Assembly: GCA_013298075.1 (NCBI GenBank) | Contig: JAAFJG010000037.1 | Location: 1-44,978, forward strand | Length of the DNA stretch: 44,978 bases | Origin: Cytophagales bacterium | GTDB taxonomy: Bacteria; Bacteroidota; Bacteroidia; Cytophagales; Microscillaceae | Direction of reading: 5' to 3' | Shown: positions 25,899 to 38,811 of the stretch, one piece after another | How the letters are laid out: each line of letters begins with the position of its first letter | Numbering within the stretch: the first letter of the stretch is position 1 | Translations under genes and position numbers: made by a program | The notes under the pieces: model-generated | What the model was told of the DNA's origin: nothing | The model's database searches: none | What the model saw: the letters and a program-made list of their open reading frames with translations, nothing else

Positions 25899-26810
25899 TT
25901 ATAATTGCATATTACTCAAATCAAAACCTTGTTCTTGTAACAATTTTTTGATTTGTTCTATTTGAAGTTGTGTTGCTTGTGCTTTTTCTTCGGCGGCTTT
26001 TGTTTCTTCCTCCAATTCTTTTGTTTTTTCTTCGGCTGCTTTTGTTTCCTCTTGCAACTCTTTTTCTAATTCTTTTGTTTTTTCGTTTGCAATTCTTGTT
26101 TCTTCGTTTGCAATTCTTGTTTTTTCATCAGAAATTCTTGCCTTTTCATCAGAAATTCTTGCATTTTCATCAGAAATTTTTGCTTTCTCTTCTGCTTCTT
26201 CTCTTTTTTGAACTTGTTGCACAAAAGTAAGAAATTGCGTTCCATCAGGATTATAAATTTTTAACTTTGAATTTTCATGTATTTCAAAAGTAATGCCTAA
26301 TAGTGGACTTGTAAAAGTTGGCATTACTAAAATAGTTCCTAATTTATTATTTTCCCGCGAATATCCATAAAACTCATTTTTAATATGGTCATAAATATAA
26401 TATTCTTGCACGCCATATTTTTGATAAAAAATAAATTTACGCATCATTTCAGAGAAAGAATTGGATTTTGATAAAATCTCAAATACAACTGCAGGGGCTA
26501 TATTTTCCTCATTCCATTGTTGATAACTATCTCTATGACCTTTTGGTCGCCCAAAAACAACCATTGTATCAGGAGCAGCACAAATATAAGGATTTCCCTC
26601 TTCAGGATACCATAATAAATCACCAGCCACAAAAACATCTGTTTTGTGTGCAAATAAAGTATCTAAATTACCCTCGATTGTGGTAATATGTTTGAAATGT
26701 TCAGTAGTTTCTGCCATTGGTTTTCCGTCACTCGATGGATAAATAATTTCTCCTGTAACTTCATCTATATATTCTGCCAATAATTCGCTTTCTAAAACTT
26801 GAGTTCCCAT
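25899..26810 (-). CDS. Uma2-family (DUF820) PD-(D/E)XK protein with repeat coiled-coil tail
   Basis: A 303-residue protein. The first ~190 residues form a Uma2 domain of the restriction-endonuclease fold: VAGDLLWYPEEGNPYICAAPDTMVVFGRPKG supplies the PD-type Asp, and NIAPAVVFEILSKSNSF supplies the E-x-x-S/K part. FYQKYGVQEYYIYD is the typical next segment. The C-terminal ~110 residues are a coiled coil of heptads (ISDEKAR/IANEETR, five units) followed by KTKELEEETKAAEE repeats. Uma2 proteins are abundant in Bacteroidota and Cyanobacteria; biological function is unproven, although the fold suggests a nuclease. The long repeat tail with matching 21-bp DNA units is unusual and could vary in copy number. 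Confidence 0.85.
   Translation of the reverse strand: MGTQVLESELLAEYIDEVTGEIIYPSSDGKPMAETTEHFKHITTIEGNLDTLFAHKTDVFVAGDLLWYPEEGNPYICAAPDTMVVFGRPKGHRDSYQQWNEENIAPAVVFEILSKSNSFSEMMRKFIFYQKYGVQEYYIYDHIKNEFYGYSRENNKLGTILVMPTFTSPLLGITFEIHENSKLKIYNPDGTQFLTFVQQVQKREEAEEKAKISDENARISDEKARISDEKTRIANEETRIANEKTKELEKELQEETKAAEEKTKELEEETKAAEEKAQATQLQIEQIKKLLQEQGFDLSNMQL
26083..26183 (-). repeat. 21-bp tandem repeats inside the Uma2 gene
   Basis: About five 21-bp units encode one coiled-coil heptad each (ISDENAR, ISDEKAR, ISDEKTR, IANEETR, IANEKTK). Adjacent units are nearly identical in DNA. Because the unit is a multiple of 3, slippage would lengthen or shorten the coil without breaking the frame. A second 39-bp-type repeat (EETKAAEEKTKELE) lies at about 25989-26055. 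Confidence 0.85.
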
Positions 26811-28448: not shown

Positions 28449-31400
28449 TCATTCAATCTCTATTTTATCAATTTCGTTCATCAACCTGTCCGTTTCGCTA
28501 AGAGCCACAATTATTTTCTGATAGTGTAAAATATCGTCAAATTCAAGTGTACGTTCTTTGCGGTCTTTGAGCCACTTTTGTGCGGGTTGATAACCTCCAA
28601 TATAAAATTCCCATGCCTTTTGTGGCACATTTTCAAAATATTGTGTTTCATTAATATATACCCTGCCTTTTTCGTATTTTACTTTTGCTACTACGTTATT
28701 TCCATCTTCGGGATATTGCGTAATGTATTGCTCAACGATTGGACTTTCTAATAAATGTATTTGTTTAATAGTTCCACCTAATTTTACCAACTGCCAAAAA
28801 GTATCCTTGTCTTTTGGATAAGGAACTCTTGGAAAATCAATTTTTAAAAATTCTTTATATTTCTCACGATATGTGGGAGAATGTAAAACCGCATAAATAT
28901 AATCCAAAACATCAATCGGTGCAAAAGTATTTTCTTTTATTTCTTTTTCATTGGTAAAAGTTAAACCTAATTGCTCGGCTATTTGATTTACAATTTCTTT
29001 ATTGAAGTTTGGCTTGCGGCTTTCTTCCTCAAAAAGTACATTCATTTCACAAGATGATAACTCTTGCTCTATACTTTCCAATCCCTTTTTTAAGAAATTG
29101 AAATGCTTTTTTTGTTTGTTGTATAATTTTGTGATTTCAATATCTGGGTTTGTATAACCTTTATACATTTTTTCAATAGTTATAAAAGTAGCCTTGAAAT
29201 TTTCTATAATGGCTCGCTGCTCTTCCAACCTAAATAATGCACTTCTGCGTTTTTCAGCCATTTCTTCCTCTTGATTTTCGGGATAGAGATAAAGGGGAAA
29301 TAAATAGGGGGTCCCATTAGTACTATACATTGCCCTGTCAGTAAGAACATACTTTGTTACTAAAATTTGACAAGGTTCTTTTGAACCTGAAATTTGTTTT
29401 AAAGTAGCCAATGTATAGTTGTCTTGCAATACTGAATGAGTTAATGATTTTCTAGGATAGGCTATAAATCCTTTTGAATTACCAGTATAAAAGGAGTGCC
29501 TAAAATCAAAGGGTTTATACTGTATTTTGAAAAAACATCCGTTTTTTGAATTAATAATATCTTTTTTGGCATAGTCAATTTTCCAGTCGCGCCCATCTTT
29601 ACGTATTGAATACTTTTTTTTCAAAGTATCAGCATCTAAATTGCGAAGATTTTCTAATACATTTTTTAATTCATCTTTATTAAAGTGAATAGTTAACTCA
29701 TCATTCTGTGTCTGAATACCAGAATTAAAATAATTAAACAACTCATCAAACTTAAACCCCTTTTCATATATTTTTATCCCATCAAAATTCTTTGGAACAA
29801 AAAATAAATTGGGTTGTGTGTATTCCAGTTCCTTCCAATCCAATGATTTTATAGAATTCTTATTTAAAAAATCATATTTGAACTCTCGTTTTCCTTGCAA
29901 ATCCAAATGAAAAACTTTACCTAATTCATTTACTTTTTTCTTTCCTGATTTTACAAAAATATTGATTGAAACGCCTTGCATAATATCAAAAACGTTTTGG
30001 TCAGGACTTCCATCAGCACAAACTTCTTTTTTCTTTGCGTTTCCATGTAAATCTAAAATATAAATTTTATCAAAACTTTGTAATAAACTTTTTCGCATTT
30101 GGCGATGGGTAATGCCATCTATAAAACTATTATTAGAAATATAAGCTAAAATTCCACTACCATTTTTATCAATAAAATATTGTCCGTAACGAATGAATTT
30201 TATATAATCATCGTCCAAATTTATTTTACGTTCATTCAGATTTTTTTTATAATCTGCAATCAAATTTTGAATCCATTTTCCTTTATTTTGGCTACTTACC
30301 GCATACGGTGGATTTCCAATCACACACATCACAGGCGCATCACGTTTGATATGATTGGCTTCATTCGCTTCTATACTTAACCAATTCGCAAATAAAGATT
30401 TTGTTTCAGGATGACTTTCTTCAAGGCTATTAGTCAAATAAACTCTAAATCGTTGGTTAGCAGTTGGTTTGTAACCTGTTTCAGTTAAAAGTAAATCTAA
30501 TTGCAAATGTGCCATTGCATAACTTGCCATTAACAATTCGAAACCATTCAATCGAGGTAATAAATGTGTTTCTACATAACTGCTCCAAACTCCTTTTTGT
30601 CCTACAAATTTTTTGTGAATATGTTTTATTACTTCAGCCAAAAAAGTTCCTGTACCCGTCGCAGGGTCAAGAATTTGTACGTTATGAACTTCTTGTTCTA
30701 TTTTTTTGCCTTTTATGTCAACCTTTATTTTTGTTTTGCTATTGTCAGCAAGCCCTTGTGGTAAATCAAATTCTGTTTTCAAAATATCATCAACAGCACG
30801 CACAATAAAATTCACAACAGGGGCAGGAGTGTACCAAACGCCACGAGATTTTCTTAGATTTGGGTCATATTCACTCAAAAAAGTTTCGTAAAAATGAATA
30901 ATGGGGTCTTCCATTTTAGTCGATTTTCCATAATTTTTTAGAATTTCCTCTACATTACACGCTAAAAATACTTCCACTAAACTATCTACTATCCATTTGA
31001 TACGGTCATCGAGGTCGGGTCCTGCAATATAACTAAATAATTTTCGTAAAAACGGATTTGATTTTGGGATTAATTCAGCTGCTTCTTGTCGGCTAAACGT
31101 CGATAAACTGGCATCATGTAAACGTGCTGCAAACATTCCATAAGCAATCGTTTGAGCATATACATCTGCAAATCCTTTGGGTGTAATGTCGTGAATAAGA
31201 ATTTCTCTAAAGGCATTCATCTGGTCTTTAAGCGTACTATCTTCCTGATTAGTTTCATCACTTGTCAATGCTTTTTCAATGACATCAGAAAGTAAACGCG
31301 CTTTTCCCGCCATCATTTCTGCTAATTTTTTTGAACTTTTTATAGTTTCTCCAATATAAGCACAAAAATCTTTTATCAAATTAATGAACGCATTAAAATT

Positions 31401-31802
31401 ATGAGGTAATGGGATAATAGTTCCATTTCGTACTTCACCAATGGCAATTTTTGTAATAAAAATAGCATCAATATATAAATAAAAATCTAAATAATCTGTA
31501 AAAATTATATTATTTAAAGACGCTTTGTAACGGTCAAATTGTTCTTTATTGCCCGTTTTTTTTGTTCCTTCCAAATCTTTATCACCAATATCTTTTGCCT
31601 CAATAAAACCAACAGGAATATCTTTTTTAGTCAAAATATAGTCAGGCGCACCGCAGGCTTGTCTTTTAGGTTCGTTAGTGGCACTAATTTCAGGCACTAA
31701 ACTTTCTATAAGTTGTTGCAAATCGCCACGAAAAGTATGTTCGGTTGCATTGCCAAGTTTGTATCGTTTATTTATTTTGTCGATATATTCTGTTATATTC
31801 AT
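28449..31802 (-). CDS. single-chain restriction-modification enzyme, array copy A (type IIG / type ISP-like)
   Basis: A 1117-residue enzyme predicted both to cut and to methylate DNA. The N-terminal nuclease has APDYILTKKDIPVGFIEAKD (D54, E68, K70; PD-x13-ExK). A linker and helical region follow (about 150-320). The N6-adenine methylase has SAM motif ILDPATGTGTF (377-387) and catalytic NPPY (497-500). Residues 501-835 are the variable, target-recognising part. The C-terminal domain (VLDYIYAVLHSPTYREKYKEFLKIDFPRVPYP...) matches the specificity domain of type ISP enzymes. No helicase motifs are seen, unlike LlaGI-type enzymes. It is the last gene of the array. Copy A differs from B and C between about 501 and 690, so a different target site is expected. 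Confidence 0.9.
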   Translation of the reverse strand: MNITEYIDKINKRYKLGNATEHTFRGDLQQLIESLVPEISATNEPKRQACGAPDYILTKKDIPVGFIEAKDIGDKDLEGTKKTGNKEQFDRYKASLNNIIFTDYLDFYLYIDAIFITKIAIGEVRNGTIIPLPHNFNAFINLIKDFCAYIGETIKSSKKLAEMMAGKARLLSDVIEKALTSDETNQEDSTLKDQMNAFREILIHDITPKGFADVYAQTIAYGMFAARLHDASLSTFSRQEAAELIPKSNPFLRKLFSYIAGPDLDDRIKWIVDSLVEVFLACNVEEILKNYGKSTKMEDPIIHFYETFLSEYDPNLRKSRGVWYTPAPVVNFIVRAVDDILKTEFDLPQGLADNSKTKIKVDIKGKKIEQEVHNVQILDPATGTGTFLAEVIKHIHKKFVGQKGVWSSYVETHLLPRLNGFELLMASYAMAHLQLDLLLTETGYKPTANQRFRVYLTNSLEESHPETKSLFANWLSIEANEANHIKRDAPVMCVIGNPPYAVSSQNKGKWIQNLIADYKKNLNERKINLDDDYIKFIRYGQYFIDKNGSGILAYISNNSFIDGITHRQMRKSLLQSFDKIYILDLHGNAKKKEVCADGSPDQNVFDIMQGVSINIFVKSGKKKVNELGKVFHLDLQGKREFKYDFLNKNSIKSLDWKELEYTQPNLFFVPKNFDGIKIYEKGFKFDELFNYFNSGIQTQNDELTIHFNKDELKNVLENLRNLDADTLKKKYSIRKDGRDWKIDYAKKDIINSKNGCFFKIQYKPFDFRHSFYTGNSKGFIAYPRKSLTHSVLQDNYTLATLKQISGSKEPCQILVTKYVLTDRAMYSTNGTPYLFPLYLYPENQEEEMAEKRRSALFRLEEQRAIIENFKATFITIEKMYKGYTNPDIEITKLYNKQKKHFNFLKKGLESIEQELSSCEMNVLFEEESRKPNFNKEIVNQIAEQLGLTFTNEKEIKENTFAPIDVLDYIYAVLHSPTYREKYKEFLKIDFPRVPYPKDKDTFWQLVKLGGTIKQIHLLESPIVEQYITQYPEDGNNVVAKVKYEKGRVYINETQYFENVPQKAWEFYIGGYQPAQKWLKDRKERTLEFDDILHYQKIIVALSETDRLMNEIDKIEIE

Positions 31803-31829
31803 TGGTTTTATAGTTTAAATTTTAGAGTG

Positions 31830-31837
31830 CAAAGTTA
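31830..31837 (-). promoter_or_regulatory. -7 box ahead of array copy A
   Basis: The minus strand reads TAACTTTG, a perfect TAnnTTTG, 28 bases before the ATG and 10 bases after the stop of copy B. No TTG lies at the usual -33 spacing. Confidence 0.5.
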
Positions 31838-31847
31838 GTTTTTTTTC

Positions 31848-34800
31848 TTATTCGATTTCTATTTTATCAATCTCATTCATCAACCTATCTGTTTCACTAA
31901 GAGCCACAATTATTTTCTGATAATGTAAAATATCATCAAATTCAAGAGTACGTTCTTTGCGGTCTTTGAGCCACTTTTGTGCGGGTTGATAACCTCCAAT
32001 ATAAAATTCCCATGCCTTTTGTGGCACATTTTCAAAATATTGTGTGTCATTAATATATACCCTGCCTTTTTCGTATTTTACTTTTGTTACTACGTTATTT
32101 CCATTTTCAGGATATTGTGTAATGTATTGCTCAACGATTGGACTTTCTAATAAATGTATGGCTCTGATTTGTCCGCCCAATTTAACGAGTTGCCAAAAGG
32201 TATTTTCATCTTTTGGATAAGGAATTCGTGGAAAATCAATTTTTAAAAATTCTTTATATTTCTCACGATATGTGGGCGAATGTAAAACCGCATAAATATA
32301 ATCTAAAACATCAATCGGTGCAAAAGTGCCTTTGGTTGTTTCTTTTTCATTGGTAAAAGTTAAACCTAATTGCTGGGCGATTTGATTTACAATTTCTTTA
32401 TTGAAGTTTGGTTTGCGGCTTTCTTCCTCAAAAAGTACATTCATTTCACAAGATGATAACTCTTGCTCTATACTTTCCAATCCCTTTTTTAAGAAATTGA
32501 AATGCTTTTTTTGTTTGTTGTATAATTTTGTGATTTCAATATCTGGGTTTGTATAACCTTTATACATTTTTTCAATAGTTATAAAAGTAGCCTTGAAATT
32601 TTCTATAATGGCTCGCTGCTCTTCCAACCTAAATAATGCACTTCTGCGTTTTTCAGCCATTTCTTCCTCTTGATTTTCGGGATAGAGGTAAAGTGGAAAT
32701 GTAGATGTTATTTCACTCGTTCTATTAGATACATACGAACTTTCAAATATTTTGTTTGAAATAAAGGCATGATAATAATTATCGCCAGTCTTGAATTGTT
32801 TGCAAAGTGCTAATCCAATATTTTCACCTTTTAAAAAATGTTGCATAACATCTAATCTCCAACGCCAAACTATTTTATTATCAAAATAAGTATATTTATT
32901 ATCAAAGGGACGATAAGAACATTGAATTATTTTTTCATCATCAATAATCAATTTTTTTTTATTATTGAGGATAAATTCAGCATAATTTTTCCCTAAATTA
33001 AATTTTATTTTTAATTCATTTTCTGATAGATTATTATTTTTGAATTCATGTAATCTACTTTTTAAATCTGACTTTGATTCACTAAAAGCAAATTCATCAC
33101 CCATTGTTACAATTCCTGTAACATTTTTTGAGAATAGTTTATCAACACTAAAACCTTTCTCATATAAAAATCTTCCATCATCATTTTTAGGTACAAAGAA
33201 AAAATTAGGTTTATTATATGCCAATTCTTTAAAATCGATAGTTTTCAATGAATTATCATAAAGAAAATCATATTTCATTTCCCTTTTTCCATATAAATCA
33301 AAATGAAAAACTTTGCCTAATTCATTATTTTTTTTCTTTCCTGTTTTTACAAATATATTTATGGATACTCCTTGCATAATATCAAATACATTTACATCTG
33401 CACTTCCATCTGGTGCAGTTTCTTTCTTTTTACTATTACCATGTAAATCTATCGTATAAATTTTATCATAAGTTTTTAGCAAGTTCCAACGCATACCGCG
33501 AAAAGTAGGATTGTCTAAAAAGCCATGAGGATTGATAAACGCTAAAATTCCACTGCCATTTTTTTCGATAAAATATTGTCCAAAACGCAAAAATTTAACA
33601 TAGTCATCATTCAGCCAATGTTTACGTTCATTAAAATGAACACCATCAACATATTTATAATCTTCAATCAGTTTACTTATCCATTCTCCATTGTTAGAAG
33701 ATATTCCGCTATACGGCGGATTTCCAATCACACACATCACAGGCGCATCACGTTTAATATGATTGGCTTCATTCGCCTCTGTACTTAACCAATTAGCAAA
33801 TAAAGATTTTGTTTCAGGATGGCTCTCTTCAAGGCTATTGGTCAAATAAACTCTAAATCGTTGGTTAGCAGTTGGTTTGTAGCCTGTTTCAGTCAATAGC
33901 AAATCTAATTGTAAATGTGCCATTGCATAACTTGCCATCAACAATTCAAAACCATTCAAACGAGGTAATAAATGTGTTTCTACATAAGTACTCCAAACTC
34001 CTTTTTGTCCTACAAATTTTTTGTGAATATGTTTTATTACTTCAGCCAAAAAAGTTCCTGTTCCCGTCGCAGGGTCAAGAATTTGTACGTTATGAACTTC
34101 TTGTTCTGTCTTTTTACCTTTTATATCAACCTTTATTTTTGTTTTGCTATTGTCAGCAAGTCCTTGCGGTAAATCAAATTCTGTTTTTAAAATATCATCA
34201 ACGGCACGCACAATAAAATTGACTACAGGGGCAGGAGTGTACCAAACACCTCTCGCTTTGCGTAAATTTGGGTCATATTCACTCAAAAAAGTTTCGTAAA
34301 AATGAATAATGGGGTCTTCCATTTTAGTCGATTTGCCATAATTTTTTAGAATTTCCTCTACATTACACGCTAAAAATACTTCCACTAAACTATCTACAAT
34401 CCATTTGATACGGTCATCGAGGTCGGGTCCTGCAATATAACTAAACAATTTTCGTAAAAACGGATTTGATTTTGGGATAAGTTCAGCCGCTTCTTGTCTG
34501 CTAAATGTTTCTATGGTTTGGTCGTGTAAACGTGCCGCAAACATTCCATAAGCAATCGTTTGAGCATATACATCGGCAAATCCTTTGGGTGTAATGTCGT
34601 GAATAAGAATTTCTCTAAAGGCATTCATCTGGTCTTTAAGCGTGCTATCTTCCTGATTAGTTTCATCACTTGTCAATGCTTTTTCAATCACATCAGAAAG
34701 TAAACGTGCTTTTCCCGCCATCATTTCTGCTAATTTTTTTGAACTTTTTATCGTTTCTCCAATATAAGCACAAAAATCTTTTATCAAATTAATGAACTTA

Positions 34801-35210
34801 CTAAAATTGTTTGGCAATGGAACAATACTTCCATTTCGCACTTCGCCAATGGCTATTTTTGTAATAAAAATAGCATCAATATATAAATAAAAATCTAAAT
34901 AATCTGTAAAAATTATATTATTTAAAGACGCTTTGTAACGGTCAAATTGTTCTTTATTGCCCGTTTTTTTTGTTCCTTCCAAATCTTTATCACCAATATC
35001 TTTCGCCTCAATAAAACCTACAGGAATATCTTTTTTAGTCAAAATATAATCGGGCGCACCGCAGGCTTGTCTTTTAGGTTCGTTAGTCGCACTGATTTCA
35101 GGCACTAAACTTTCTAAAAGTTGTTGCAAATCTCCCCGAAAAGTATGTTCGGTTGCATTGCCAAGCATATATCTTTTGTTTATACTGTCTATATATTCTG
35201 TTATATTCAT
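31848..35210 (-). CDS. single-chain restriction-modification enzyme, array copy B (type IIG / type ISP-like)
   Basis: A 1120-residue paralogue with the same architecture as copy A: nuclease core D54/E68/K70, SAM motif ILDPATGTGTF, catalytic NPPY near 33711-33722, variable region, then the type ISP-like C-terminal domain. Residues about 500-690 (NPHGFLDNPTFRGMRWNLLKTYDKIYTIDLHGN) are shared with C but not A. From PLYLYPENQ onward (about 839-1000) it is almost identical to A and unlike C. Residues about 690-838 are unique. Patches such as VRNGSIVPLPNNFSKF and the last ~90 residues (PENGNNVVTKVKYEKG) are peculiar to B. The frame is intact, so the protein is presumably active, with its own recognition site. 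Confidence 0.9.
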   Translation of the reverse strand: MNITEYIDSINKRYMLGNATEHTFRGDLQQLLESLVPEISATNEPKRQACGAPDYILTKKDIPVGFIEAKDIGDKDLEGTKKTGNKEQFDRYKASLNNIIFTDYLDFYLYIDAIFITKIAIGEVRNGSIVPLPNNFSKFINLIKDFCAYIGETIKSSKKLAEMMAGKARLLSDVIEKALTSDETNQEDSTLKDQMNAFREILIHDITPKGFADVYAQTIAYGMFAARLHDQTIETFSRQEAAELIPKSNPFLRKLFSYIAGPDLDDRIKWIVDSLVEVFLACNVEEILKNYGKSTKMEDPIIHFYETFLSEYDPNLRKARGVWYTPAPVVNFIVRAVDDILKTEFDLPQGLADNSKTKIKVDIKGKKTEQEVHNVQILDPATGTGTFLAEVIKHIHKKFVGQKGVWSTYVETHLLPRLNGFELLMASYAMAHLQLDLLLTETGYKPTANQRFRVYLTNSLEESHPETKSLFANWLSTEANEANHIKRDAPVMCVIGNPPYSGISSNNGEWISKLIEDYKYVDGVHFNERKHWLNDDYVKFLRFGQYFIEKNGSGILAFINPHGFLDNPTFRGMRWNLLKTYDKIYTIDLHGNSKKKETAPDGSADVNVFDIMQGVSINIFVKTGKKKNNELGKVFHFDLYGKREMKYDFLYDNSLKTIDFKELAYNKPNFFFVPKNDDGRFLYEKGFSVDKLFSKNVTGIVTMGDEFAFSESKSDLKSRLHEFKNNNLSENELKIKFNLGKNYAEFILNNKKKLIIDDEKIIQCSYRPFDNKYTYFDNKIVWRWRLDVMQHFLKGENIGLALCKQFKTGDNYYHAFISNKIFESSYVSNRTSEITSTFPLYLYPENQEEEMAEKRRSALFRLEEQRAIIENFKATFITIEKMYKGYTNPDIEITKLYNKQKKHFNFLKKGLESIEQELSSCEMNVLFEEESRKPNFNKEIVNQIAQQLGLTFTNEKETTKGTFAPIDVLDYIYAVLHSPTYREKYKEFLKIDFPRIPYPKDENTFWQLVKLGGQIRAIHLLESPIVEQYITQYPENGNNVVTKVKYEKGRVYINDTQYFENVPQKAWEFYIGGYQPAQKWLKDRKERTLEFDDILHYQKIIVALSETDRLMNEIDKIEIE

Positions 35211-35237
35211 TGGTTTTATGGTTTAAATTTTAGAGTG

Positions 35238-35245
35238 CAAAGTTA
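35238..35245 (-). promoter_or_regulatory. -7 box ahead of array copy B
   Basis: The minus strand reads TAACTTTG, perfect to consensus and in the same position relative to the ATG as in copy A. Confidence 0.5.
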
Positions 35246-35255
35246 GGTTTTTTTC

Positions 35256-38200
35256 TTATTCAATCTCTATTTTATTGATTTCGTTCATCAACCTGTCCGT
35301 TTCGCTAAGAGCCACAATTATTTTCTGATAGTGTAAAATATCGTCAAATTCAAGTGTACGTTCTTTGCGGTCTTTGAGCCACTTTTGTGCGGGTTGATAA
35401 CCTCCAATATAAAATTCCCATGCCTTTTGTGGCACATTTTCAAAATATTGTGTTTCATTAATATATACCCTGCCTTTTTCGTATTTTACTTTTGCTACTA
35501 CGTTATTTCCATCTTCGGGATATTGCGTAATGTATTGCTCAACGATTGGACTTTCCAATAAATGTATAGATCTGATTTGTCCGCCCAATTTTACTAATTT
35601 CCAAAAAGTATCCTTGTCTTTTGGATAAGGAATTCGTGGAAAATCAATTTTTAAAAATTCTTTATATTTCTCACGATAGGTGGGAGAATGTAAAACTGCA
35701 TAAATATAATCTAAAACATCAATCGGTGCAAAAGTATTTTCTTTTGTTTCTTTTTCGTTGGTAAAAGTTAAACCTACATTTTGAGAAAATTTCTTGACAA
35801 TTTCTGGACTTAGATTAGGTTTACGAGTTTGATTTTTTTGCATAAAAAGACCTTGATTACTTTGTTGAGGAGTTAGCAAATTTTGAATTTTTTCTAATTC
35901 TTGTTGTAATTTTAGGTATTCTTTTTCCTGCCCTTCATAAAGTTTTTGAGTAGTTTTATCAGGATTCTTCACTATTTTAAAAATTTTTTTGAAGGCTAAA
36001 AAACCCTTTTCAAACTGCTCGATGAGCATTTTTGTTTCTTCTAGTTCTAACTCCAAATCCTTTTTTTTCTCTAGCGAAAGTTCCTTTATTGGTTTTTCAG
36101 TTTTGGGATAGAGGTAGAGAGGGCAAATAGGAGCACCATTTCCAACCCTACTTGCCATAATACCAAACTCTGTAATATTTTTTGTTACTTGAATGTCTGC
36201 CCATTTATAATCACCAACGACAGTTCTTGAAATTATCAACCCTACATTGTCCCCTTTAAAGAAATGTTGCATCACCTCATTTCTTGGATAACAATGAAAC
36301 CCTTTTGATTTTCCTGTGTAAAATGTCCATTTGTTATCAAATGGTCTGTAATAAATTTTTGTAAAAACACCTTTATCTGGAAAGTGATTTTGTAAATCTT
36401 TCTTTGCAAAATTTACTTGCCAATCTCTCACATCTTTTCCTAAATTGAATTTTGCTCTTGCTTGTTCGTCATCTAGTTTTAAAAAATCCGTGATAGTATT
36501 TTCAACTTCTTGTTTTGAATTATGAATTGTAAATCCATCTCGTGCTGTAACTATTCCTACATTGTTTAAAGTAAAAAGTGCATTAACTAAAAATCCTTTG
36601 TCATAAGAAGTTTGCTCATCAAAGTCTTTATTTACAAAAAAATAATTGGGTGCAGTTGGTCGTAATTCTTTATAATCAACTGTTTTTAAAGAGTTACTAA
36701 TTAGAAAATCGTACTTTATTTCTCTTTTGCCATACAAATCAAAATGAAAAACTTTACCTAATTCATTAGCCTTTTTCTTTCCTGTTTTTACAAATATATT
36801 TATGGAAACTCCTTGCTGAATATCAAAAACATTTATATCTGCACTTCCATCTGGTGCAGTTTCTTTCTTTTTACTATTACCATGTAAATCTATCGTATAA
36901 ATTTTATCATACGTTTTTAGCAAATTCCAACGCATACCACGAAAAGTAGGATTGTCTAAAAAGCCATGAGGATTGATAAACGCTAAAATTCCACTGCCAT
37001 TTTTTTCTATAAAGTATTGTCCATAACGCAAAAATTTAACATAGTCATCATTTATCCATTTTGGATTTTTTTCTTGTAATTTGATTTTTCCTTCAGGCTC
37101 TTTTTTATAATCTTCCATCAAATTCATAATCCATTGTCCTTTATTTTGGCTTTCGCCACTATATGGCGGATTTCCAATAATGCACATCACAGGCGTATCT
37201 CTTTTGATTTGATTGGCTTCGTTTGCTTCATTACTCAGCCAATTAGCAAAAAGTGTGGTTGTATCAGCGTTACTTTCCTCCAAACTATTGGTTAAATAAA
37301 CCCTAAATCGTTCGTTGTTTGTTGGTTTGTAGCCTGTTTGAGTCAATAATAAATCTAATTGTAAATGTGCCATCGCATAACTCGCCATCAACAATTCGAA
37401 ACCATTCAAACGAGGCAATAAATGTGTTTCTACATAACTACTCCAAACTCCTTTTTGCTCTGCAAATTTTTTGTGAATGTGTTTTATTACTTCAGCCAAA
37501 AAAGTTCCTGTACCTGTGGCAGGGTCAAGAATTTGTACTTTATGAACTTCTTGTTCTATTTTTTTGCCTTTTATATCAACCTTTATTTTTGTTTTGCTAT
37601 TGTCAGCAAGTCCTTGCGGTAAATCAAATTCTGTTTTTAAAATATCATCAACAGCCCGCACAATAAAATTGACCACAGGAGCAGGGGTGTACCAAACGCC
37701 TCTCGCTTTGCGTAAATTTGGGTCATATTCACTCAAAAAAGTTTCGTAAAAATGGATAATAGGGTCTTCCATTTTGGTCGATTTGCCATAATTTTTTAGA
37801 ATTTCCTCTACATTGCAAGCCAAAAACACTTCCACTAAACTATCTACTATCCATTTGATACGGTCATCGAGGTCGGGTCCTGCAATATAACTAAACAATT
37901 TTCGTAAAAATGGATTTGATTTTGGGATAAGTTCAGCCGCTTCTTGTCTGCTAAATGTTTCTATGGTTTGGTCGTGCAAACGAGCCGCAAACATTCCGTA
38001 AGCAATCGTTTGCGCATATACATCTGCAAATCCTTTGGGTGTAATGTCGTGAATAAGAATTTCTCTAAAGGCATTCATCTGGTCTTTAAGCGTACTATCT
38101 TCCTGATTAGTTTCATCACTTGTCAATGCTTTTTCAATGACATCAGAAAGTAAACGCGCTTTTCCCGCCATCATTTCTGCTAATTTTTTTGAACTTTTTA

Positions 38201-38660
38201 TAGTTTCTCCAATATAAGCACAAAAATCTTTTATCAAATTAATGAACGCATTAAAATTATGAGGTAATGGGATAATAGTTCCATTTCGTACTTCACCAAT
38301 GGCAATTTTTGTAATAAAAATAGCATCAATATATAAATAAAAATCTAAATAATCTGTAAAAATTATATTATTTAAAGACGCTTTGTAACGGTCAAATTGT
38401 TCTTTATTGCCCGTTTTTTTTGTTCCTTCCAAATCTTTATCACCAATATCTTTCGCCTCAATAAAACCTACAGGAATATCTTTTTTAGTCAAAATATAAT
38501 CGGGCGCACCGCAGGCTTGTCTTTTAGGTTCGTTAGTCGCACTGATTTCAGGCACTAAACTTTCTAAAAGTTGTTGCAAATCGCCACGAAAAGTATGCTC
38601 GGTGGCATTACCAAGTGTATACCTTTTATTGATATTGTCGATATATTCTGCTATATTCAT
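35256..38660 (-). CDS. single-chain restriction-modification enzyme, array copy C (type IIG / type ISP-like)
   Basis: A 1134-residue paralogue and the first gene of the array. It has the same nuclease (D54/E68/K70), methylase (ILDPATGTGTF; NPPY near 37161-37172) and C-terminal domain. It shares the 5' end and the QTIETF patch with B, but the TIIPLPHNFNAF patch and the last ~90 residues with A. Residues about 439-495 (TNNERFRVYLTNSLEESNAD) are its own. The region after PLYLYPKTEK is a different, longer coiled coil (LSLEKKKDLELELEETKMLI) than in A and B; coiled coils here usually space the two halves of the target-recognition region. The specificity is therefore expected to differ. The leader has TAACTTTA in place of TAACTTTG. 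Confidence 0.9.
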   Translation of the reverse strand: MNIAEYIDNINKRYTLGNATEHTFRGDLQQLLESLVPEISATNEPKRQACGAPDYILTKKDIPVGFIEAKDIGDKDLEGTKKTGNKEQFDRYKASLNNIIFTDYLDFYLYIDAIFITKIAIGEVRNGTIIPLPHNFNAFINLIKDFCAYIGETIKSSKKLAEMMAGKARLLSDVIEKALTSDETNQEDSTLKDQMNAFREILIHDITPKGFADVYAQTIAYGMFAARLHDQTIETFSRQEAAELIPKSNPFLRKLFSYIAGPDLDDRIKWIVDSLVEVFLACNVEEILKNYGKSTKMEDPIIHFYETFLSEYDPNLRKARGVWYTPAPVVNFIVRAVDDILKTEFDLPQGLADNSKTKIKVDIKGKKIEQEVHKVQILDPATGTGTFLAEVIKHIHKKFAEQKGVWSSYVETHLLPRLNGFELLMASYAMAHLQLDLLLTQTGYKPTNNERFRVYLTNSLEESNADTTTLFANWLSNEANEANQIKRDTPVMCIIGNPPYSGESQNKGQWIMNLMEDYKKEPEGKIKLQEKNPKWINDDYVKFLRYGQYFIEKNGSGILAFINPHGFLDNPTFRGMRWNLLKTYDKIYTIDLHGNSKKKETAPDGSADINVFDIQQGVSINIFVKTGKKKANELGKVFHFDLYGKREIKYDFLISNSLKTVDYKELRPTAPNYFFVNKDFDEQTSYDKGFLVNALFTLNNVGIVTARDGFTIHNSKQEVENTITDFLKLDDEQARAKFNLGKDVRDWQVNFAKKDLQNHFPDKGVFTKIYYRPFDNKWTFYTGKSKGFHCYPRNEVMQHFFKGDNVGLIISRTVVGDYKWADIQVTKNITEFGIMASRVGNGAPICPLYLYPKTEKPIKELSLEKKKDLELELEETKMLIEQFEKGFLAFKKIFKIVKNPDKTTQKLYEGQEKEYLKLQQELEKIQNLLTPQQSNQGLFMQKNQTRKPNLSPEIVKKFSQNVGLTFTNEKETKENTFAPIDVLDYIYAVLHSPTYREKYKEFLKIDFPRIPYPKDKDTFWKLVKLGGQIRSIHLLESPIVEQYITQYPEDGNNVVAKVKYEKGRVYINETQYFENVPQKAWEFYIGGYQPAQKWLKDRKERTLEFDDILHYQKIIVALSETDRLMNEINKIEIE

Positions 38661-38811
38661 TGGTTTTATGGTTTAAATTTTAGAGTTTAAAGTTAGTTTT
38701 TTGTTGATAAAGTTTATTTTTTATCATATTTTTATATAATTATATTTTTTTGTATATTTGCAAAAAACAATATTAAACAAAATCAATATAATTTTCTAAG
38801 AACCAAAATTA
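38661..38811. promoter_or_regulatory. leader and promoter region of the RM array
   Basis: The third copy of the leader ends near 38697. Its -7 position (38688-38695) reads TAACTTTA on the minus strand, one base off consensus at the conserved G. A consensus TATATTTG occurs at 38753-38760 on the opposite (plus) strand, with no plus-strand gene to serve. Confidence 0.45.

Follow-up and report, generated by a model that had tools for sequence, protein, structure and literature searches.

Why should a bacterial genome carry three long, closely similar restriction-modification (RM) genes one behind the other? The question is raised by the window analysed here, 44,978 nucleotides of contig JAAFJG010000037.1 (positions 1 to 44,978, forward strand; GenBank assembly GCA_013298075.1) from a Cytophagales bacterium of the Microscillaceae, in which positions 28,449 to 38,660 are occupied by three such genes, A, B and C. 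The answer that we consider probable is threefold: the triplet is an array within a multigene family, spread across the genome, of Type IIG/IIL-like RM enzymes that are single chains and lack a helicase; the target recognition domains (TRDs) of this family have exchanged pieces; and the arrayed genes are jointly expressed. Below, C-numbers denote contigs (C85 being the window contig), G-numbers genomes (G000 being the organism's own and G001 a sister) and L-numbers loci.

The three genes lie head to tail on the minus strand, as do all of their parts described below. In 5′ to 3′ order they are gene C (35256–38660; 1134 amino acids, aa), which opens the array, gene B (31848–35210; 1120 aa) in the middle, and gene A (28449–31802; 1117 aa), third and last, which is predicted to encode a nuclease, an N6-adenine methylase and a TRD in a single chain. 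None has an internal stop, and 45-bp spacers separate C from B (35211–35255) and B from A (31803–31847), as a sequence-only reading of the window had described. Protein identity among the three is 95–97% over residues 1–240, 93–98% over residues 241–500 and 62–76% over residues 501–690; it is 27–36% in the TRD (residues 700–850) and 92–96% at the C-terminal end (residues 951–1120). The divergent centres, conserved ends, swapped specificity regions and three distinct TRDs of that reading are thus supported. Its 'near-identical' N-terminal halves hold for the proteins and less so for the DNA, in which the synonymous divergence (dS) over residues 1–480 is 0.27–0.34. This value shows that genes A, B and C are not recent duplicates as wholes, and very recent duplication of the entire genes is rejected, although patches of exact DNA identity between the copies reach 440, 278, 278 and 275 nt. 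Nor is the divergence confined to the central region, as had been supposed. It turns out that gene C differs also in the coiled-coil segment behind the TRD (35769–36077), where it carries a different allele, modelled as a helical hairpin, with 33–34% identity to the segments of genes A (28962–29261) and B (32361–32660), which are 99% identical to each other.

In all three proteins we found the nuclease motif D-x13-E-x-K at residues 54–70 (31593–31643 in gene A, 35001–35051 in B and 38451–38501 in C), the S-adenosylmethionine motif DPATGTG at residues 379–385 and NPPY at residues 497–500. Each matches the Pfam families N6_Mtase and Type_ISP_C (PF18135; E-values 8.8e-82, 1.6e-80 and 4.1e-89), so that the motifs and the ISP-like specificity domain read earlier from the letters are confirmed for each chain. 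The PADLOC model REase_MTase_IIG matches the window proteins at 1133–1240 bits, which excludes chance, and together with Pfam and the motifs it supports the earlier Type IIG assignment. No helicase family was detected in the three proteins at E 0.01, the methylase match starting at residue 299. By sequence, each polypeptide combines a nuclease, a methylase and one TRD, as in Type IIG (IIC) enzymes; it has the C-terminal specificity domain of Type ISP enzymes and lacks their superfamily 2 (SF2) helicase/translocase; and it has the size (about 1.1 thousand aa), the nuclease-helical-methylase-TRD order and the helicase-free build of the TspGWI/TaqII family. No second methylase family was found among five neighbouring open reading frames (ORFs) scanned. 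BREX PglX, a methylase without a nuclease domain, does not fit, since the nuclease motif is present here, and the PglX profile match is weak (gene A, E 0.0054). No brx or pgl genes were found among the same five ORFs. The window proteins are therefore predicted to be helicase-free, single-chain Type IIG/IIL-like enzymes with a Type ISP-like specificity domain; judged by motif, the nuclease is of the PD-(D/E)XK type and the methylase a gamma-class N6-adenine enzyme. The missing helicase had been put forward as a distinguishing feature. We reject it as such, because members of the Thermus TspGWI/TaqII family, and DrdV, are likewise single chains that lack a helicase.

The triplet does not stand alone in its genome (4.71 Mb in 153 contigs; 97.9% complete, 1.1% contaminated). 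A protein search found close copies on C85 (three), C76 (three), C72 (two), C136 (one, plus one cut), C65 (one) and C38 (two, both cut), and further pieces on C134, C41 and C105, amounting to 10 full-length genes, seven of them outside the window, and six pieces at contig ends. Whether distinct starts (the 10 plus C38_A, C41 and C105) or distinct ends (the 10 plus C136_B, C38_B and C134) are counted, this assembly holds at least 13 genes. Identity to gene B is at least 70% for the nine full-length copies counted and 62% for C65; all 10 full-length close copies have kept the catalytic motifs and match Type IIG profiles. Adjacent copies stand beside ordinary flanks on C85, C76, C72 and C136; a further adjacent pair, on C38, lacks flanks. 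At least four arrays, the triplet among them, are present in the genome, and the spacer is 44–45 bp at all seven close-copy array junctions. The pieces could not be joined into further arrays: for the plausible neighbours (C136 with C105; C134 with C41 and C38) the ends share k-mers only with interior copies, and the flanks of C136 and C105 in genome G002 are not collinear with a C136–C105 join. The nearest sister genome, G001, has one full copy, according to a copy-number comparison that had been suggested earlier. The view of a single lineage expanded into an array of three was thus right as to the expansion of a lineage and understated its extent. Besides the close copies, a distant subfamily (38%) is represented by two copies on C143, and relatives at 28–31% occur on five other contigs, one short weak match aside. 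The C143 tandem pair (L042:4934-11448; 1060 aa, 38% to the window genes) differs at 2 nt over 3183, and is either a real recent duplication or an assembly artefact.

Most array genes share a leader element. The sequence TAnnTTTG, which we take to be the Bacteroidota -7 consensus, is matched by a box at -35 relative to the start codon in 10 of the 12 array genes; the spacer between B and A has it there as TAACTTTG, and the spacer between C and B carries the same TAACTTTG. A variant occurs in the first gene of the window array and in the C41 piece. The box was checked at 15 gene starts, those of C65 and the C143 pair lying outside the 12 array genes and lacking the box at -35. Upstream of the box, TTG is found at -52/-53 in six of the 12. 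The leader of gene C (38661–38790) shares, in its upstream part, an exact stretch of 92 nt with the leader of the C105 piece. Since each array gene has its own leader, the cell most likely runs all of them together, and by these sequence signals the tandem copies are probably expressed at the same time.

The nuclease and methylase parts are under purifying selection. Over residues 1–480 of nine array genes (36 pairs, C65 and partial genes left out), the mean nonsynonymous divergence (dN) is 0.051, the mean dS 0.49 and the mean dN/dS 0.10. Residues 1–240 of the array copies are 85–97% identical. Within arrays dS is 0.27–0.48, below that of flank genes compared with sister species G001 (0.70–0.78), so that divergence of the copies, or their last homogenisation, postdates that split. 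The exact tracts of up to 440 nt between copies suggest gene conversion, part of which could be assembly mis-phasing.

What varies is the TRD, and it varies as a mosaic. Among the 12 TRD-bearing sequences (C38_A has no TRD), no pair exceeds 72% identity over residues 700–850. The protein alignment was made without the C134, C41 and C105 pieces, which are too short, and the module comparison without the distant C143 pair. The adjacent copies C72_A and C72_B are 93% identical in the first half of the TRD (half 1) and different in the second (half 2). In DNA windows their identity is 94–98% at residues 705–755 and 38% at residue 805; past residue ~805 C72_A tracks C76_B (95–96% DNA identity) and C72_B tracks C136_A (88–94%). 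In protein, copies in two further arrays match the half 2 sequences of the C72 pair at 98% and 100% identity. MaxChi placed the breakpoints of this set at residues 801 and 798, none of 10000 permutations being as strong. C72_A, C72_B, C76_B and C136_A can be grouped as an exchange set: its pairs have one half in common but not the other. Likewise, C76_C and C38_B have half 1 in common (90%) and differ in half 2, that of C38_B being 74% like C65. In the window, half 1 of gene A (29415–29720) has its best match at 47% (L084), and that of gene B (32817–33116) matches L075 at 77% and that of gene C (36243–36557) L097 at 81%; half 2 of gene A (29268–29414) matches L078 at 71% and that of gene B (32667–32816) L068 at 89%, and that of gene C (36093–36242) has its best match at 48%. 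Elsewhere in the family the exchanged unit often appears to be a half-TRD, joined near residue ~800.

The same pattern was seen among relatives. Of 351 relatives, 80 loci were kept, from the genome_contigs collection; 70 of these have an intact ORF longer than 900 aa with the motifs, the other 10 being left out, and with our 12 copies they give 82 sequences for the comparison of halves (19 of the 70 were left out of alignment A2). Single-linkage clustering at 60% sorted half 1 into 44 groups and half 2 into 39. The 14 members of one half-1 group combine with 11 half-2 groups, and the seven of one half-2 group with six half-1 groups; 115 pairs share half 1 only, 67 half 2 only and 30 both. The correlation of identities is weak between the halves (r 0.17) and stronger within them (0.66 for half 1, 0.48 for half 2), and at a threshold of 0.55 the two ends of half 1 are both similar in 135 of 231 pairs (0.58). 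In Psychroflexus tropicus (L054) half 2 is 98% identical to the half 2 of C136_B, on the strength of which TRD pieces seem to move between genera.

A structural model of gene C (pLDDT 73.6, pTM 0.54) has a helix at residues 794–802 between two groups of strands, and the switch between halves falls beside it. DrdV is both the best sequence match in the PDB (7lo5, E 7.5e-36) and the top Foldseek hit; the leading rows of the VIA structure comparison, in which the absence of a family carries no meaning, are LlaBIII (4xqk, Z 32.2), LlaGI (5ffj, Z 30.6) and DrdV (Z 30.4), with large root-mean-square deviations, probably because the domains are placed differently. In LlaGI, particular bases are read by TRD loops IV, V and VI (PMC4872093). 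For TaqII, the authors attribute the reading of positions 0–2 to residues that align with loop IV, helix H and loop V, and that of positions 3–4 to loop VI, partly as predictions (PMC5587805). By alignment and model, loops IV and V would fall in half 1 and loop VI in half 2; from the LlaGI and TaqII contacts we infer a three-base word for half 1 and a two-base word for half 2.

These observations suggest how such a family could work. A single C-terminal recognition domain would serve both the nuclease and the N6-adenine methylase, and because one TRD would aim both activities, a change of TRD would alter cutting and protection together and would not be self-destructive. Copies would have arisen by duplication and then spread to several loci, and homologous exchange through conserved blocks would swap TRD pieces among copies and loci, the pieces often being half-TRDs joined near the conserved helix VMQHFLKGEN (residue ~800). 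Half 1 would address the distal bases of the site and half 2 the bases adjoining the methylated adenine. If the enzymes are active, the outcome would be a stacked barrier of about a dozen different sites bearing N6-methyladenine (m6A) on one strand, presumably with a role in defence, which illustrates how a dozen restriction specificities, each consistent in itself, could accumulate in one lineage. Two interchangeable TRD halves could let a cell build many target sequences from few pieces, and if the halves are independent readers they would constitute a natural modular code for single-chain restriction enzymes, with motifs predictable from the halves; the set C72_A, C72_B, C76_B and C136_A would be an in-built test of that code within the genome. 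A bolder extension, which we put forward tentatively and think rather doubtful as yet, is combinatorial restriction: half-TRD modules would circulate among arrays and genera, a six-base site would be composed of a three-base word, a two-base word and the methylated A, and the copies could pair. Since the nuclease domain is shared (85–97%), enzymes bound at different sites could pair to cut, restriction then depending on combinations of sites. Type IIG cleavage likely involves transient dimers (PMC3874165).

Several results weigh against our account of the triplet as one array of jointly expressed enzymes with exchanged TRD pieces. The box of the first gene of the window array is altered to TAACTTTA, and the spacing between TTG and box at six of the array genes is closer than what we presume to be usual in Bacteroidota, so that the promoters are putative only. 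No TRD half is shared among genes A, B and C, and half exchange is therefore seen in other arrays and in relatives, not inside the triplet; in the compared set neither half 1 of gene A (47%) nor the halves of C76_A (40% and 43%) have close matches. Three further MaxChi triplets switch at residues 799, 817 and 835 (each 0 of 10000 permutations), and all five triplets were picked after the mosaics had been seen. Among the relatives, two half-1 groups (six and four members) keep one half-2 group each. For half 2, the 0.55 threshold finds both ends similar in 87 of 458 pairs (0.19), hardly above the 33 of 246 (0.13) for half 1 with half 2, and half 2 itself may be patchy. The sliding correlation is 0.22 at residue 802 and 0.37 at 811, and since it is lower at 838 (0.12) and similar at 648–664 (0.20–0.29), the dip at ~802 is not unique. 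The mapping of loops relies on alignment and a model of moderate confidence. Finally, several contig ends share exactly 126–127 nt with other copies, which looks like a short-read assembly at k=127, and the exact repeats of 275–440 nt within the window array mean that the two ends of this array, 5′ and 3′, could be wrongly phased with each other.

The altered box also fits another explanation, in which only one gene per array is expressed and the others form a silent library that replaces the expressed TRD, a phase variation like that of pilin cassettes or hsdS loci. Continuing exchange, as indicated by exact tracts of up to 440 nt and mosaic TRDs, would be expected of such a library. However, silent cassettes need neither catalytic motifs kept in all 10 full-length copies nor the dN/dS of ~0.1 of the nine array genes, and they have no need of a leader box that 10 of the 12 array genes retain; nor was a recombinase match found in the five neighbouring ORFs scanned. 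We regard a silent library as unlikely. Passive or selfish multiplication of RM genes, the extra specificities bringing no benefit, is less likely still. It would account for the lineage-specific, dispersed expansion and for relatives on plasmids (340 records, of which 339 have less than 60% identity; 59 are from Borrelia and 26 from Borreliella), but copies multiplied passively would be expected either to retain one TRD or to decay, whereas the 12 TRDs show no pair above 72% and catalysis is strongly conserved.

Could the arrays be false, with strain variants or several genomes collapsed in assembly or binning? The short-read-like contig ends, the long exact repeats in the window array and the C143 pair, whose two differences such an assembly should not resolve, are what this explanation predicts. 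However, copies within arrays differ at dS 0.27–0.48 and by whole TRDs, the flank genes of C85, C76, C136 and C105, the contigs which the sister-species comparison covered (C72, C65, C38, C134 and C41 were outside it), match the sister species at 83–95% protein identity, and the nine contig stretches have G+C contents of 0.285–0.341 in a genome of high completeness and low contamination. The longest exact matches in the exchange set are 83 nt between C72_A and C72_B (residues 556–582), 65 nt between C72_B and C136_A, and 134 nt between C72_A and C76_B (residues 1012–1055); no exact match of 127 nt lies at the joints of the set, so that a k=127 assembler had nothing there to jump on. An artefact of this kind is improbable. 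The least probable alternative, that these proteins are epigenetic regulators acting mainly by methylation, would suit one-strand m6A marks from many enzymes, which would reshape the methylome, and a methylase fold that also resembles orphan CamA and BREX BrxX, but a dispensable nuclease would not be expected to have its motif in one of the most strongly conserved stretches of the protein (residues 23–97; mean identity 0.95–0.96, 55 pairs).

The family is patchily distributed, and most of the genomes searched lack it. With our own genome included, 19 of 37 relatives matched at E 0.001; at 1e-100 the order gave 50 matching genomes out of 390 and the class 11 out of 119. The candidates scored per genome numbered at most 20 in the relatives search, only two in that of the order and at most six in that of the class. 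Eighteen order genomes, when fully rescored, gave 1–6 matched stretches at 1e-60, several of them pieces of one gene, and we read them as holding one to about four genes each. No second full-length copy was found in the available flanks of the 80 loci kept, many of these flanks being short because their contigs are. Eleven of the 80 were inspected further, and four of these have a short extra 3′ fragment downstream (L063, L072, L095 and L125). Nearest to an array elsewhere are contig C131 of G048 and contig C312 of G126, each with a second, incomplete copy near the first. In other Cytophagales (L188, L190, L191 and L192; genomes G048, G126 and G033) the gene is divided in two near residue 625: one ORF encodes the nuclease-methylase part and another the Type_ISP_C specificity part, and a YhcG (DUF1016) nuclease ORF lies between them or alongside. 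Four relatives (L065, L108, L115 and L122) are 1238–1295 aa long, ~100–200 aa above most others, the extra sequence lying seemingly in the C-terminal half. Eight viral contigs (L193–L200) encode relatives of the enzyme with 55–69% identity in the best segment.

Of the five ORFs scanned beside the triplet, three encode SufE, a transaldolase-CBS protein and a putative nuclease of the Uma2 type, and the other two have products of 132 and 192 aa. The Uma2-type gene (25899–26810) contains short repeats at 26005–26210 and was not found at the equivalent place in G001. At the C85 site the G001 contig stops 135 nt past the transaldolase-CBS gene, and in G002 the neighbour of SufE differs; SufE was not found in G001 (E 1e-15), nor the transaldolase-CBS gene in G002. 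At the C76 site G001 lacks the array and has, beside the flank gene, GmrSD_N and HEPN ORFs (L179:7710-9375), as if this place took different defence genes, and G002 shows no array in the 1.0 kb remaining before its contig end.

The closest parallels lie among enzymes already described. Type ISP enzymes (LlaGI, LlaBIII) share the methylase-TRD unit with Type_ISP_C, as the structure comparison also indicates, but the window proteins are without their helicase/translocase domain. Members of the TspGWI/TaqII family (Type IIC/IIG) are described as single chains of ~1105 aa with a PD-(D/E)XK nuclease, a helical domain, a methylase and an ISP-like TRD, and with a cutting mechanism different from that of Type ISP enzymes (PMC5587805); the window enzymes resemble them in size, domain order and ISP-like TRD, a likeness drawn from their description. 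TaqII and TaqIII are paralogs in one strain which recognise different sites and differ mainly in the TRD (PMC5587805), but they are two genes on two plasmids, 93% identical, whereas here at least 13 genes are found, many in tandem arrays and with mosaic TRDs. DrdV, termed Type IIL (PMC11842806), also unites nuclease, methylase and TRD in one chain; its identity to the window enzymes is ~18–25%, and no DrdV arrays are reported in the literature searched. Up to 20 Type IIG genes per strain are recorded for Borrelia burgdorferi (PMC3874165), which is thus comparable in having many Type IIG systems in one genome, and Borrelia/Borreliella plasmids hold relatives of the present family; the portion of that account consulted does not mention tandem arrays or half-TRD exchange. 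Among the literature matches listed (titles and starts of abstracts, mostly of non-subscription literature), none deals with single-chain Type IIG genes arrayed in tandem, or with an exchange of half-TRDs within the family. Helicase-free chains with such a TRD, high numbers of Type IIG genes and TRD shuffling in S subunits are already known. The last is represented by Helicobacter pylori, where domain movement and TRD shuffling affect S genes of Type I and of Type IIG, and recombination of two TRDs leads to new specificities, also between loci (PMC3077401). There, as here, recombining TRD units create specificities, but in H. pylori the units are two full TRDs of a separate S subunit, whereas in the present family they appear to be parts of one TRD within one chain.

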